Shown: one piece after another, positions 20,516 to 58,407 of the stretch
Numbering within the stretch: position 1 is the first letter of the stretch
Layout of the letters: each line of letters opens with the position of its first letter
From: Gemmatimonadales bacterium
GTDB lineage: Bacteria; Gemmatimonadota; Gemmatimonadetes; Gemmatimonadales; GWC2-71-9
DNA length: 64,000 nucleotides
Direction: 5' to 3'
NCBI GenBank assembly: GCA_036500345.1
Contig: DASYCE010000031.1
Coordinates: 162,728-226,727, forward strand
Translations under genes and position numbers: made by a program
Notes under the pieces: generated by a model
What the model saw: the letters and a program-made list of their open reading frames with translations, nothing else
What the model was told of the DNA's origin: nothing
Database searches by the model: none

Positions 20516-21241
20516 ATGCGACCACTCCGGCTGTACATCAATGTGGACCACGTCGCGACGATCCGGCAGGCGCGTCAGACCGACGAACCTGCGCCGCTCG
20601 CCGCGGCGCGTGAGGCAGAACGCGCCGGTGCCGACGGGATCACCGTGCACCTCAGGGAGGACCGCCGGCACATCCAGGACGCCGATGTGCGAGCGATCGC
20701 TGCCGCGGTGGGAACCGTCTGCAATCTCGAGCTCGCTGCCCGCGACGACATCGTCGCGATCGCGTGCGACATCCGTCCCTATCAGGTCACGCTCGTACCC
20801 GAGCGGCGGGAAGAAGTCACCACCGAGGGAGGCCTCGACCTGTCCCAGCGTGATGGCAAGCTTCGTGGCGCCATCCGCCGCCTCGACGAAGCCGGATTGC
20901 ATGTCTCGCTCTTCATCGATCCTGCCACCGAGACGATCGACGCCGCCAAGGACCTCGGGGTCCCGGCGATCGAACTCCACACCGGCCGATACTCCCACCG
21001 GTGGCGTGACGACCCGACCGCGCTCGACGAGCTGACCAGCGCGGCCGAGTACGCCGCGTCGCTCGGGCTTGCGGTGCACGCCGGTCACGGATTGACCTAC
21101 GAGAGCACTGCCGCGGTCGCCAGGATCGCAGCCATCGAGGAGCTCAACATCGGCCACAGCATCATCAGCCGCAGCGTCTTTACCGGTATCGGCACCGCTG
21201 TTCGTGACATGAAGGCGATCCTGGCGGACGCCGGCCGGTGA
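20516..21241 (+). CDS. pdxJ: pyridoxine 5'-phosphate synthase
   Basis: 241 residues, standard length. PdxJ condenses 1-deoxy-D-xylulose 5-phosphate with 3-amino-2-oxopropyl phosphate to give pyridoxine 5'-phosphate. The product starts RLYINVDHVATIRQAR (the VDHVATIR signature with His and Arg), continues GITVHLREDRRHI, and carries the catalytic Glu in CNLEL and His in ELHTGRYSH. The phosphate-binding end has HAGHGLTY and the NIGHSIISR element. It is the only B6 gene here. Its stop overlaps the GTG of the next gene (GTGA). Confidence 0.97.
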   Translation: MRPLRLYINVDHVATIRQARQTDEPAPLAAAREAERAGADGITVHLREDRRHIQDADVRAIAAAVGTVCNLELAARDDIVAIACDIRPYQVTLVPERREEVTTEGGLDLSQRDGKLRGAIRRLDEAGLHVSLFIDPATETIDAAKDLGVPAIELHTGRYSHRWRDDPTALDELTSAAEYAASLGLAVHAGHGLTYESTAAVARIAAIEELNIGHSIISRSVFTGIGTAVRDMKAILADAGR

Positions 21242-23103
21242 GTACCACCTCCCGGCGGGCAGAGTTCTTCACGCTCGAGGCGAGCGAGTACCTCTCCGAT
21301 CTCGAACCGCTCGCCAACGCGCACGACCGCCCCGATGCCGAGCGACTGGTTCGGGGTGCCCGTGCCCTGCGCGGTGCCGCGCTGATGGCCGGCCTCGGGA
21401 CGTACGCCCGCACCGCCGCTGGACTGGAAGCGATCGCGCGGCAGGTTCGCGATCACGCGCTGGCGTGGGAACCGAATGCCCGTGAGGCGTGGATCGAGGG
21501 GCTGGCGACGCTGCGTGCGCTGATGACCCGCGCGGCAAGCTGGGAAGCGGCAGACGATCGGCAGGCGCTGGCGCTCGCCGAGCGTCTCGACCAGGTCCTC
21601 TCGGGCCGCCCGGCACGATCGACGGCACCGGCACCGGCAGCGCTCACACCCGGTGTTCGCGCGTTCATTGCGCGCGAGTCGGCACTCATCGCGGGGTCGC
21701 TGGAACAAGCCTCGCGCGCGCTCGCTCCCGTCCCTCCCACCGCGGCGCTCTCCGCCGTGCTGGAGCGGATGCAGTCGCTCCGCGGTCTTGGCGCGTCCGC
21801 GGAACTGTCGCCGCTGCCCGAATTGCTCGACGCGATGGAAGTGGTGACGCGCACATTGCTCAGTGACGTTCCACCGCCGCCGAATGTCGCCGCGGTCTTC
21901 GGCGATGCGGCGCACGCACTCGCCGCGATGGCGCGCGCAGTGGCTGATTCGGGGCGGATCGTGCCGCCGCCGGAGCTCGACGGGATCGCCAAGCGGCTCC
22001 TGGAGAGCTACGCCGCCGAACAAGACGTCGTCCCGATTGCGACACTGGCGCCGACCGGCGTCGACCCGATCCTGCATCGTGGCACACCGCCGCAGCCGTC
22101 GCCCGAATCGGTGCCGGTACCGGTCGAACTCGTCAGCGTCGGCGATCATCTGCTGCTCGTCGCCGACGCCCTCTCCCGCCCCGCAACGCCGGCGGCGCGC
22201 GACCTGCGCCTCTTCGTGCTGCACCGCACCCTCTCGGCGATGCCGTCGCGGAGCGCCACCGGACGTTTTCTCTCGCCCCTCGCCGACGCGATCACCACCG
22301 CCATCAGCCGCCGCATCGCGATCGAGCGGCCGGAGGCGTTCGTGGCGATGCTGCGGGGATCGGGCCGCTTCCTCGTGGAAGGGGCGAGTGTCACTGACCA
22401 CGCGGCGCTCGCGAATCGGCGCGACGCAATCGCCACGTCGCTGGTGATGGTGTCGCTCGGCGCCCCCGCGGGCGGCATCGATACGACACCGCCAGGGAGA
22501 TCAGTCGCATCGCCGAGCGCCGCCGAGACGCACGCCGAGGAGCAATTGGTTGCGCCGACCGACGCGCAGGTCGAACCCGTACCGCTCGAAGACGCTGCCG
22601 AGGTCGTGCCGATCGCGAGTCTCGTCGTGGACGAGCCGTTCGAGGTCGTGCCGATCGAATCACTTGCGGCGGACGAGGCGTTCGAAGTCGTGCCGATCGA
22701 ATCGCTCGCACCGGACGAAACGTTCGACGTCGTGCCGATCGAGTCGCTCGCACCCGACGACACCGCCGTCGTGTCGATCGAGTCGCTCGCGCCGGATCCC
22801 GTCATATCGATTCCCGACACGGCACCGGGAGATCCGTCGCGGCTCGAACGCGCCTTCGCCGATCGTCGTGGGCGCGGTACCGCGTCATCGGCCGAGGCAC
22901 CATCGTTGAGCGGACTGATCGGCGCGGAGATCGTTCCGATCGCGACGCTGATCTACCGCGGAGCGAGCGCCCTCGCTCGCGCGGCCGAGGTCCGGATCGA
23001 GATCCACGCGGTCCTGGCAGAGCCGAGTGTGTCGCTGGACACCCTCCGGCCGTACATCCACGAATTGCTTGATCTCGTGCCGCTGGCGCGTGACGCCGCC
23101 TGA
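21238..23103 (+). CDS. Hpt-like domain protein lacking the phospho-histidine, with VPIESL repeats
   Basis: 621 residues, GTG start. The N-terminal 120 residues resemble a histidine-phosphotransfer domain, but where a phospho-acceptor His would be expected the sequence reads RGARALRGAALMAGLGTY, with no His. A second helical region follows. Residues 455-521 contain five tandem copies of a 14-residue unit (E-V-V-P-I-E-S-L-A-P-D-E-x-F type); single copies occur near residues 263 and 564. The C-terminal part (IYRGASALARAAEVRIEI) is helical. A docking or scaffold protein of a chemosensory-like system is possible, but no CheA, CheW or kinase is near. Function unknown. Confidence 0.7.
   Translation: MSTTSRRAEFFTLEASEYLSDLEPLANAHDRPDAERLVRGARALRGAALMAGLGTYARTAAGLEAIARQVRDHALAWEPNAREAWIEGLATLRALMTRAASWEAADDRQALALAERLDQVLSGRPARSTAPAPAALTPGVRAFIARESALIAGSLEQASRALAPVPPTAALSAVLERMQSLRGLGASAELSPLPELLDAMEVVTRTLLSDVPPPPNVAAVFGDAAHALAAMARAVADSGRIVPPPELDGIAKRLLESYAAEQDVVPIATLAPTGVDPILHRGTPPQPSPESVPVPVELVSVGDHLLLVADALSRPATPAARDLRLFVLHRTLSAMPSRSATGRFLSPLADAITTAISRRIAIERPEAFVAMLRGSGRFLVEGASVTDHAALANRRDAIATSLVMVSLGAPAGGIDTTPPGRSVASPSAAETHAEEQLVAPTDAQVEPVPLEDAAEVVPIASLVVDEPFEVVPIESLAADEAFEVVPIESLAPDETFDVVPIESLAPDDTAVVSIESLAPDPVISIPDTAPGDPSRLERAFADRRGRGTASSAEAPSLSGLIGAEIVPIATLIYRGASALARAAEVRIEIHAVLAEPSVSLDTLRPYIHELLDLVPLARDAA
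22600..22800 (+). repeat. 42-bp tandem repeat, about five copies, in frame
   Basis: The DNA encodes five consecutive 14-residue units; the fourth is one residue short. The core VVPIESLA is invariant in three of them, and codons differ between copies by synonymous changes, so the array has been there long enough to drift while its protein sequence was kept. Confidence 0.85.
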
Positions 23104-33930: not shown

Positions 33931-33970
33931 GTGTCCGGAATCCGGACAAAGTGTCCTGAAAACAGGACAC
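33931..33970. promoter_or_regulatory. pair of palindromes, TGTCC...GGACA arms
   Basis: Site one: TGTCCGGA (33932-33939), A, TCCGGACA (33941-33948). Site two: GTGTCCTG (33951-33958), AAAA, CAGGACAC (33963-33970). Both arms are perfect. The centres are about 20.5 bases apart, two helical turns, so both face the same side of the DNA. They lie between rplI and rsfS, about 70-100 bases upstream of the rsfS -10 box. They look like operators for a dimeric regulator; as RNA they could also form hairpins, but no T-run follows. Confidence 0.6.
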
Positions 33971-34036
33971 CTGTCAGGAATCGGTTCAGCGAGCGATTCC
34001 CGCCTCATTTCACCCATCTCCGCCGGAGTGGCCGGG

Positions 34037-34044
34037 TATCTTTG
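34037..34044 (+). promoter_or_regulatory. -10 element before rsfS
   Basis: TATCTTTG, identical to the elements before prs and smc. It lies 38 bases before the chosen rsfS start. No good -35 box is seen, which is compatible with activation from the upstream palindromes. Confidence 0.5.
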
Positions 34045-34081
34045 ACCTGCAACGGCCCCGTCGCGACGTCGGCCCGATCCA

Positions 34082-34459
34082 GTGGGATTGACCCGATTGG
34101 CTGATCGCCGCGGCCCCCGGCTCCCTCCGGCAGTTCGAGCCGTGGTCAACGCGATCGACGATCGCAAGGGTGTCCGGATCCAGGTCCTGGACCTGCGGGG
34201 GCTCTCCGACGCTGCCGATTTCTTCATCATCGCGTCCGGCACGTCTGATGCGCATGTTCGAGGGCTCGCCGATGGCGTGGTCGACGCAGTCAGCCGGACC
34301 GGTCGGAGCCCACACCACGTCGAAGGCGTCTCGGCAGGCCGGTGGGTCCTACTCGATTTCGTGGACTTCGTAGTCCACCTGTTTCACCCGGAGACGAGGG
34401 CGTTTTACCAGCTCGAGCGCTTGTGGCAGGACGCGCCGACGCTCCTCTCCGAACCGTGA
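34082..34459 (+). CDS. rsfS: ribosomal silencing factor RsfS
   Basis: 125 residues from GTG 34082; TTG at 34088 or 34097 would shorten it slightly. RsfS binds L14 and blocks subunit joining when nutrients run out. The domain is recognisable by LDLRGLSDAADFFIIASGTSDAHVRGLADGV and VLLDFVDFVVHLFHPETRAFY (the D-V-V-H-hydrophobic motif). No nadD gene lies beside it, as it often does elsewhere. It is followed within 30 bases by the MA-peptidase fusion gene. Confidence 0.93.
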   Translation: MGLTRLADRRGPRLPPAVRAVVNAIDDRKGVRIQVLDLRGLSDAADFFIIASGTSDAHVRGLADGVVDAVSRTGRSPHHVEGVSAGRWVLLDFVDFVVHLFHPETRAFYQLERLWQDAPTLLSEP

Positions 34460-56560: not shown

Positions 56561-57022
56561 TCAGGGACAGATCCAGGTACGGTGCACTGCTGCAAATCCG
56601 GAACGCTCGAGTATCTCCAAGGCCATGAGGCCGAGGCCGGCGAGGAAAATCAGCACGCCGACGGAATGTGCAACGCCGCGCCGGTGCGTCCACGAGCCGC
56701 GCATCGTCCAGATCCCGGCGGCGGCAACGGCACCGGCTCCAAGCAGATAGAGGCCGAGGAGCGGCCCGCAACTCCGCGAATACGGCCAGAATGGAAGCGC
56801 CACTGCGCCGGCAACACCAAGGAGTGCGCGAAGCCAGACGCCGACCGTGTGGCGGCGACGTGTCACGACCACCGGCGCTCCGGGCGGAAGCGCCGCCGTA
56901 GCCGCCGGACCGGGTGCATCACGCCGGACCACGGGCGCCGGACCTGGCGCCGCCTGCTTGTCGGCCGCCATCAGGCGATCGATTTCGGCCATCTCCTTGT
57001 CCCAGTCGCGTGGCCCGGTCAT
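56561..57022 (-). CDS. hypothetical three-helix membrane protein
   Basis: 153 residues. The N-terminal 50 are charged and Pro/Ala-rich (MTGPRDWDKEMAEIDRLM), likely cytoplasmic; two or three helices follow (VWLRALLGVAGAVALPFW, LLGLYLLGAGAVAAAGIW, VLIFLAGLGLMALEIL). Not recognised. Coupled to the NtrC-type regulator by ATGA. Confidence 0.6.
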   Translation of the reverse strand: MTGPRDWDKEMAEIDRLMAADKQAAPGPAPVVRRDAPGPAATAALPPGAPVVVTRRRHTVGVWLRALLGVAGAVALPFWPYSRSCGPLLGLYLLGAGAVAAAGIWTMRGSWTHRRGVAHSVGVLIFLAGLGLMALEILERSGFAAVHRTWICP

Positions 57023-58407
57023 CCAGGGTTCTCCCTCTCGATTTCGTATCGTTCGAGCAGGGCGTAGAGATTCGATCGGGGGACGCCGAGCGCTTTCGCG
57101 GTTTCGGTGATGTTCCAGCGGTGTTCGACGAGGCGCGCGATCAGGAACGCCCGTTCTCCGGCGCCACGAAAATCATCCAGCGTCCGCTCGGAGCTCGCCG
57201 TGGCCTGTTTTGCCTCGACCATCGCCGCCGATTCCGGCGGCAGCGCGTGGCCCACGTCGACATCGGTGACCTCGGGGCTGCTGCTGAGGATCAGGATTCG
57301 CTCGACCGCGTTGCGCAACTCGCGAACATTCCCCGGCCACGACCGTCGCTGCAGCCGGCGGATCGCCGCCGACGAAAAACGCTTCGTCACCATCCCGGGC
57401 CCCAGGGAGAGCGCACTGACAAAGTGCGCCACGAGCGCCGGAATGTCGTCGATCCGATCTCGCAGCGGCGGGACGCGGATCGGCATCACGTTGAGGCGGA
57501 AGAAAAGATCCTCGCGAAAGCGCCCCTCCGCGATCTCCTGGGCGAGGTCGCGATTGGTCGCCGAGATCACTCGAACGTCCACGTTGATCGGCTTGGTGCC
57601 GCCGACGCGAACGACCACGCCCTCCTGAAGCACCCGGAGGATCTTCGCCTGCGCGTTGAGCGCCAGGTCACCGATTTCATCGAGAAAGAGCGTCCCGCCG
57701 TCGGCGACTTCGAACTTCCCTGCCTGATCAGTGGCAGCACCGGTGAACGATCCTCGCATGTGCCCGAAGAGTTCGCTTTCGACCAGTTCGGAGGGAATCG
57801 CGGCGCAATTCACGTCGACGAACGGGTCGCGCCGCCGGTCCGATCCGTCATGAATCGCCCGCGCCACGAGTTCCTTGCCGCTGCCGTTCTCTCCGCTGAT
57901 CAGGACGCGAGCATTGGTCGGTGCCACCCGCGCCACCAGTTCGCGAATGTCCTCGAGCGCCTTGCTCTTCCCGACCATCGCGTAGCGCGATTCGTTGGCG
58001 CGCTGGAGTCCCTCACGGAGCCGCGCATTTTCTCCCACCAGCCGCCGGTGATCGAGTGCGTGCTGTACCGTCACGAGCAACCGGTCGGAATCGAGCGGCT
58101 TCTCGAGGAAGTCGAAGGCGCCCTGCTTGACGGCCTGGACCGCGGTGGAAATCGACCCGTGTCCCGAGATCATCACCACGCGGACGTTGGGATCCTCGGC
58201 GCGAAGTTGCTGGAGCGTGTCGATGCCGTCGATCCCCTGCATCTTGACGTCGAGAATGATCAGATGGAATGGCTGAGCACGGTGCGCGGCGATCGCCTCG
58301 CCCCCGGAACCTGCGGTGATGACCTCGTACCCCTCGTATCCGAGCACCTGTGCCAGGACATCGCGAATCGACCGCTCGTCGTCGACGACGAGGATGCGCC
58401 CTTTCAC
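57019..58407 (-). CDS. sigma-54-dependent NtrC-family response regulator
   Basis: 462 residues. Receiver domain with Asp53 as phosphorylation site (IILDVKMQG). AAA+ domain: Walker A GENGSGKE (172-179), sigma-54 contact loop G-S-F-T-G-A (219-224; most relatives have GAFTGA), Walker B LFLDEIGD. The C-terminal Fis-type helix-turn-helix is ITETAKALGVPRSNLYALLER. GTG start overlaps the upstream stop. No histidine kinase gene is adjacent, so it is an orphan in this window. Its DNA targets are unknown. Confidence 0.95.
   Translation of the reverse strand: MKGRILVVDDERSIRDVLAQVLGYEGYEVITAGSGGEAIAAHRAQPFHLIILDVKMQGIDGIDTLQQLRAEDPNVRVVMISGHGSISTAVQAVKQGAFDFLEKPLDSDRLLVTVQHALDHRRLVGENARLREGLQRANESRYAMVGKSKALEDIRELVARVAPTNARVLISGENGSGKELVARAIHDGSDRRRDPFVDVNCAAIPSELVESELFGHMRGSFTGAATDQAGKFEVADGGTLFLDEIGDLALNAQAKILRVLQEGVVVRVGGTKPINVDVRVISATNRDLAQEIAEGRFREDLFFRLNVMPIRVPPLRDRIDDIPALVAHFVSALSLGPGMVTKRFSSAAIRRLQRRSWPGNVRELRNAVERILILSSSPEVTDVDVGHALPPESAAMVEAKQATASSERTLDDFRGAGERAFLIARLVEHRWNITETAKALGVPRSNLYALLERYEIERENPG

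Follow-up and report, generated by a model that had tools for sequence, protein, structure and literature searches.

Tandem palindromes between rplI and rsfS

In the window (the whole 64-kb stretch of DNA analysed here), the gene for ribosomal protein L9 is followed on the same strand by the gene for the ribosome silencing factor RsfS, which blocks ribosomal subunit joining in starvation, and two perfect palindromes lie in the spacer between them (Table 1). Relatives suggest that rsfS starts at the TTG codon at 34097, compared to the GTG at 34082 listed by the ORF tool. Site 1 (TGTCCGGA-A-TCCGGACA, centre 33940) begins 8 bases downstream of the rplI stop codon, and site 2 (GTGTCCTG-AAAA-CAGGACAC, centre 33960.5) begins 27 bases downstream of it. 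Both are present exactly as described in an earlier, sequence-only reading of this DNA, which had noted their shared TGTCC/GGACA half-site and the 20.5 bp between their centres. The repeated unit can be written as TGTCC-N7-GGACA-N3-TGTCC-N8-GGACA, with 20 bp from start to start, and a third block (TGTCAGGAATCGGTTCA) starts 20 bp after the start of site 2.

Table 1. Location of the genes, sites and arrays discussed in the text (window positions; arrays by locus).
Feature	Position	Strand	Basis
rplI, ribosomal protein L9	33474..33923	+	ORF, Pfam L9
Site 1, TGTCC-N7-GGACA palindrome, odd, 8+1+8	33932..33948	+	sequence; N7-then-N8 unit elsewhere
Site 2, TGTCC-N8-GGACA palindrome, 8+4+8	33951..33970	+	sequence; half-sites conserved in G076 and G081
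Third block TGTCAGGAATCGGTTCA, degenerate copy in phase or another factor's site	33972..33988	+	conserved in G076 and G081
TATCTT, candidate sigma-70-type -10 of rsfS, without recognisable -35	34037..34042	+	inference
rsfS, ribosome silencing factor	34097..34459	+	Pfam RsfS; ORF; relatives
NtrX-like response regulator with sigma-54 activation domain, binder proposed by the sequence-only reading	57019..58407	-	profile scores
21-bp-period arrays	L011 850-1460; L075 995-1140 (minus strand); L004 1060-1375; L010 1047-1410

The palindrome pair exceeds chance. Each exact pattern occurs once in the window, where a scan allowing one mismatch gave two hits, the number expected from shuffling. In the complete assembly (hereafter G000; 3,319,001 bases in 32 contigs), TGTCC-N7-GGACA and TGTCC-N8-GGACA were each found at 7 places, and a backwards control pattern at 0 places. 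As the six other spacings N9–N14 of the same half-sites total 6 places over G000, the excess is specific to N7 and N8; with one occurrence expected per spacing, the Poisson probability of at least 7 is 8e-5 for a single spacing.

Scans for the composite of both sites (19 fixed bases) in named genomes gave 12 stretches, most of them without the arrangement, and in viral contigs 3 stretches sharing one near-identical repeat region; both collections may leave out the genome under study. One Bacteroidaceae match (L063) has TGGCACATGTATTGC 21 bp downstream. Elsewhere in the window, a 42-bp in-frame repeat (EVVPIESLAPDE-like) at 22599–22796 lies within the ORF at 21238–23103, and its reading as a 21-bp array was rejected in favour of an in-frame protein repeat. 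SOS or other stress operators were considered on the basis of their motifs and dropped as candidates.

Conservation of the site at rsfS

A search of 31 genomes located rsfS in 30 of them, and the comparison of its locus covers the closer relatives (leaving out L113, L114, L120, L119, L122, and L124–L134). The gene directly follows rplI in G000 and three congeners (G076, G081, and G083). In two of these, G076 and G081, the corresponding position before rsfS is occupied by an exact N8 site, and the site is absent in G083. Site 1 is absent in G076 and G081 and precedes rsfS in no genome other than G000 among those compared. Conservation upstream of rsfS in relatives, on which the sequence-only reading had depended, thus holds for the N8 site in two congeners but not for site 1.

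In an alignment of the G000, G076, and G081 spacers, the blocks TGTCC, GGACAC, TGTCAGGA, and GGTTCA are invariant (25 of 25 columns), compared to 34 of 143 columns in the rest of the rplI–rsfS spacer, and eight columns in the palindrome interior vary. The third block (TGTCAGGAnnnGGTTCA) is kept together with the N8 site in two of the three congeners that have rplI directly before rsfS. Among 102 family genomes, 3 have its pattern in the rplI–rsfS spacer, a single further occurrence seems to lie in coding sequence, and the composite with at most two mismatches is found in one of the 102, G000 itself.

Five further congeners (G077, G078, G079, G080, and G084) have an open frame directly behind rplI, with rsfS further on. 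The intervening gene has DAK2, FakA-like, and DegV matches in the two genomes tested (G077 and G084), and its counterparts in G078, G079, and G080 look similar by sequence to this DAK2-FakA-DegV fusion. No such gene lies between rplI and rsfS in G000, G076, G081, or G083. Similar sequence just before rsfS in several other genomes of the family (f1) suggests that the presence of the DAK2-DegV gene is the older state.

Several sites elsewhere in the genome precede sigma-54-like elements

The 14 exact places in G000 comprise the rsfS pair (n = 2), five apparently intragenic sites without a promoter (L001, L002, L005, L007, and L008, judged by reading the sequence rather than by gene call), and seven sites upstream of genes (L003, L004, and L009–L013). 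The full unit is found at L009 and L010, where an N7 site with one mismatch is followed 20 bp on by an exact N8 site. The two-site unit with 20 bp from start to start is hence present three times in G000, and the rsfS pair is its only mismatch-free composite. Related arrangements are two N7 sites 20 bp apart at L004 and, at L003 and at L076 of a congener, a first site that is weaker and lies 20 and 21 bp upstream, respectively.

TGGCAC-type sigma-54 elements lie downstream of the site at six of the seven gene-upstream loci; at L012, which represents the same gene as L075, the sigma-54-like element is weak (score 3.8). Five of the seven loci encode members of one helical-looking family of approximately 240 aa, an association that is circular within G000, as the family was built from five genes found via the sites. 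The two members tested have no Pfam match. The L003 product is a small protein that is rich in Tyr and Arg and looks secreted, and the 246-aa product of L009 matches phrog_19005, a family of unknown function. Among other helical-family members of G000, L135 scores 15.1 for sigma-54 and has a site with two mismatches, and L136 has neither site nor element.

The scan of the whole genome for the half-site pair, as called for by the sequence-only reading, thus shows that the sites recur and that seven loci other than rsfS have them ahead of genes. The genes so preceded encode helical-family proteins, the secreted protein, and the phrog_19005 protein; five other sites look intragenic. The sites recur in G000 and in the genus, and the unit recurs in G000, which excludes that they occur nowhere else.

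Site-to-promoter distances and a wider test in the family

The distance from the site start to TGGCAC was obtained for 19 promoters using a looser pattern with some mismatches allowed (L139 gave none). Eight promoters have values of 66, 68, 69, 70, 70, 71, 71, and 71 bp, four have 127, 129, 129, and 129 bp, and the other seven have 139–218 bp, placing a predicted, promoter-like sigma-54 element within a few hundred bp of the site in 19 upstream regions (66–218 bp). Two such tight distance classes across species are hard to explain unless the site and the predicted promoter work together.

A protein search found the helical family in 33 of 298 genomes of the phylum. In other f1 genomes, 13 of 22 helical-family upstream regions reach a sigma-54 score of at least 12, compared to a maximum of 11.0 in the window; the matrix was derived from 12 of the regulon's promoters, whose own scores are circular, and as 7 of the 13 regions belong to the training set, the untrained share is 6 of 15. 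In 5 of the 22 regions, an exact N8 site is located no more than 300 bp ahead of the best-scoring sigma-54 position, and counting sites with up to one mismatch gives 10 regions, whereas the N9–N14 rate predicts approximately 2e-4 exact N8 sites per region. Outside f1, in family f2, none of the 12 helical-family upstream regions scores 12 or more.

At the genus level, 34 exact N8 sites occur in 10 genomes, compared to 4 for the backwards control. Excluding those already described at rsfS and helical-family genes, 20 congeneric regions (21 sites) were examined. Most have no sigma-54 element, and five (L161, L167, L170, L174, and L175) score at least 11.9 facing the downstream gene. In four of these, each from a different congener, the downstream protein resembles the secreted L003 protein by eye and the site lies 70–71 bp from TGGCAC (L161, L167, L170, and L174; the L170 frame is visible in the DNA and absent from the ORF list). 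L175 drives a helical-family protein. The L003-type secreted-looking Tyr/Arg-rich protein, two members of which were tested and have no Pfam match, stands behind the operator and a sigma-54-like element in five species, and the site-plus-promoter arrangement is also found in five congeneric genomes. A separate tandem pair of exact N8 sites, spaced 21 bp, is present at L163 (G080:C198:13522-13560) within an extended open frame; it has no promoter element and may be coding or chance.

Long diverged arrays with a 21-bp period (42, 41) were also seen upstream of helical-family genes, ending near the palindromes. With a top lag of 20–22 or 41–43 and an excess of at least 0.10, such arrays are detected in 30 of 41 helical-family upstream regions, compared to 10 of 70 window tiles. 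At an excess of at least 0.15, the numbers are 25 of 41 and 1 of 70, the single tile being the in-frame protein repeat mentioned above. As 21 bp corresponds to two helical turns, these may be phased binding arrays.

Taken by sequence, the half-sites, their spacings, and the 20-bp unit stand at set distances upstream of sigma-54-like elements in G000 and its genus. With a probability that we put at roughly two in three, the two palindromes together form the operator at which a dimeric sigma-54 enhancer-binding (NtrC-like) regulator binds in tandem. The three occurrences of the two-site unit in G000 match the tandem palindromic dimer sites of such enhancers, and the position of the sites upstream of sigma-54-type promoters supports an NtrC-type binder, as proposed in the sequence-only reading, at the level of the class. 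Its further suggestion of one dimeric regulator on paired sites is backed by the recurring 20-bp unit and by the N8 site conserved in two congeners, but not by site 1, which at rsfS is confined to G000.

The rsfS promoter and alternative explanations

The rsfS copy of the operator differs from the others in its promoter. The best sigma-54-like scores near rsfS are -1.0 on the plus strand (33960–34300) and 0.9 on the minus strand, whereas most regulon promoters score 12–26, and in relatives the best are -4.3 (G076) and 2.2 (G081). Control of rsfS by the regulator is thus putative, as no sigma-54 promoter was found near the gene. A scan with the sigma-70 consensus before rsfS found no promoter either. 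The candidate -10 element TATCTT belongs to a GTATC block that aligns in G000, G076, and G081, and its distance from site 2, counted manually, is approximately 67, 60, and 71 bp in the three species, so one helical phase is not kept. Some members of the enhancer-binding class activate or repress sigma-70 promoters, and the regulator might do so at rsfS, or the site might be inert there.

The operator could be a relic or decoy of the same regulon at this locus, with rsfS transcripts arising as read-through of the rplI operon. The missing sigma-54 promoter would fit this, as would G083, which does without the site, and the five congeners that place rsfS behind a gene starting close to the rplI stop. 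However, the 25 invariant columns persist in three species while the rest of the spacer has diverged, and the pair is the one composite in G000 free of mismatches; we regard this explanation as unlikely.

Less likely still is a dimeric regulator outside the enhancer-binding class that serves several kinds of promoter and adjoins sigma-54 promoters because it modulates them. A site at rsfS with no sigma-54 element, and the long and variable distances at the seven promoters with 139–218 bp, would suit such a protein. However, the tight classes of 66–71 and 127–129 bp are what an enhancer site requires, sigma-54 promoters depend on an enhancer-binding activator anyway, and an unsystematic look between sites and promoters revealed no other conserved palindrome.

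Finally, although both palindromes fold strongly just after the rplI stop in G000, a role as hairpins in the 3' end of the rplI mRNA, serving end protection, termination, or rsfS attenuation, is improbable. The terminator scan found no T run behind them, compensating changes were not seen, the best Rfam hit (14.5 bits) stays below the gathering score of 50, and the spacer folds with an unremarkable energy (z -1.64). G081 keeps only 5 pairs with its half-site letters unchanged, no more than 3–5 of 15 sites have complementary inner positions, and unrelated genes are preceded by the same half-sites. Fixed half-sites combined with a variable stem length are the pattern predicted for a dimer that reads sequence, and half-sites that stay invariant while the interior drifts favour a protein site over an RNA hairpin.

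Candidate regulators and comparison with known systems

G000 encodes eight full regulators of the enhancer-binding class, all with NCBIfam scores below the cut-offs among the matches listed, and these eight activators make it likely that rpoN is encoded as well. The NtrX-like regulator in the window, named as a possible binder by the sequence-only reading, has its best NCBIfam score for NtrX (464 bits, cut-off 600 bits). Its 3.5-kb locus contains no site with at most one mismatch, nor do any of the eight regulator loci, and nothing singles it out from the other seven. Another of the eight, L020, has its own sigma-54-like element (12.2) without TGTCC sites, which suggests that it may itself be sigma-54 controlled. 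A further, strong sigma-54-like element (TTTGGCACGCTGCTCCGAC, score 13.9) was noted on G000 C16 (L196), between the regulator L016 and a downstream gene whose product looks like an NYN-type nuclease.

Paired palindromic sites for an NtrC-like regulator have been described for NmpR of Myxococcus xanthus, where binding to paired GCGCA-N5-TGCGC sites was shown by gel shift and the spacing between sites matters for binding (PMC11841059). The systems share the regulator class and two nearby palindromic sites upstream of sigma-54 promoters, but the half-site here is TGTCC instead of GCGCA, the gap is 3 nt instead of mostly 14–15 nt, binding is predicted from sequence instead of gel shifts, and the rsfS copy lacks a sigma-54 promoter (PMC11841059). 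The Legionella pneumophila rsfS has its own promoter, which varies with growth phase and temperature and is slightly raised in an rpoS mutant, and, in contrast to the operator described here, the passages available mention no enhancer-type operator (PMC12977618).

NtrX-like regulators resemble the putative binder as enhancer-binding response regulators encoded in the genome, but no link to the TGTCC sites was seen. PilR of Pseudomonas aeruginosa, a sigma-54 activator, reportedly recognises repeated sites of the TGTC type; TGTC is thus a shared part of the recognition sequence, although these are repeats and not TGTCC palindromes. Searches of literature text found no TGTCC-N7/N8-GGACA strings as written, no study of sigma-54 promoters in Gemmatimonadetes/Gemmatimonadota among the papers listed, and just two papers for rsfS promoters or operons, one of which concerns the rsfS gene; the text available from PMC3333781 has no TGTCC-type string. 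Overall, the paired enhancer-type site is known in kind, and the unusual part is that it stands in front of rsfS where no sigma-54 promoter is present.

Proposed mechanism and significance

Returning to the tandem enhancer operator, we propose that one of the eight full enhancer-binding regulators would be the putative binder, with its dimers sitting side by side on one face of the DNA. At rsfS, the dimers may modulate a promoter independent of sigma-54, perhaps the one with the TATCTT element, or loop to an unrecognised promoter. The operator may have appeared on loss of the DAK2-DegV gene, giving rsfS a control of its own. A wider and rather doubtful extension is that the operator belongs to a lineage-restricted, Gemmatimonadota-like enhancer system consisting of an NtrC-type regulator, two-turn tandem palindromes, and 21-bp arrays, one copy of which came to lie before rsfS after the DAK2-DegV loss and acts there without sigma-54. 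If true, the signal that governs an envelope or stress regulon would also reach ribosome silencing.

An operator common to rsfS and a sigma-54-type regulon makes the control of rsfS testable. In addition, a regulon defined by a conserved site, a promoter, and proteins without Pfam matches offers a handle on regulation in a bacterial group for which no sigma-54 promoter study was among the papers listed.
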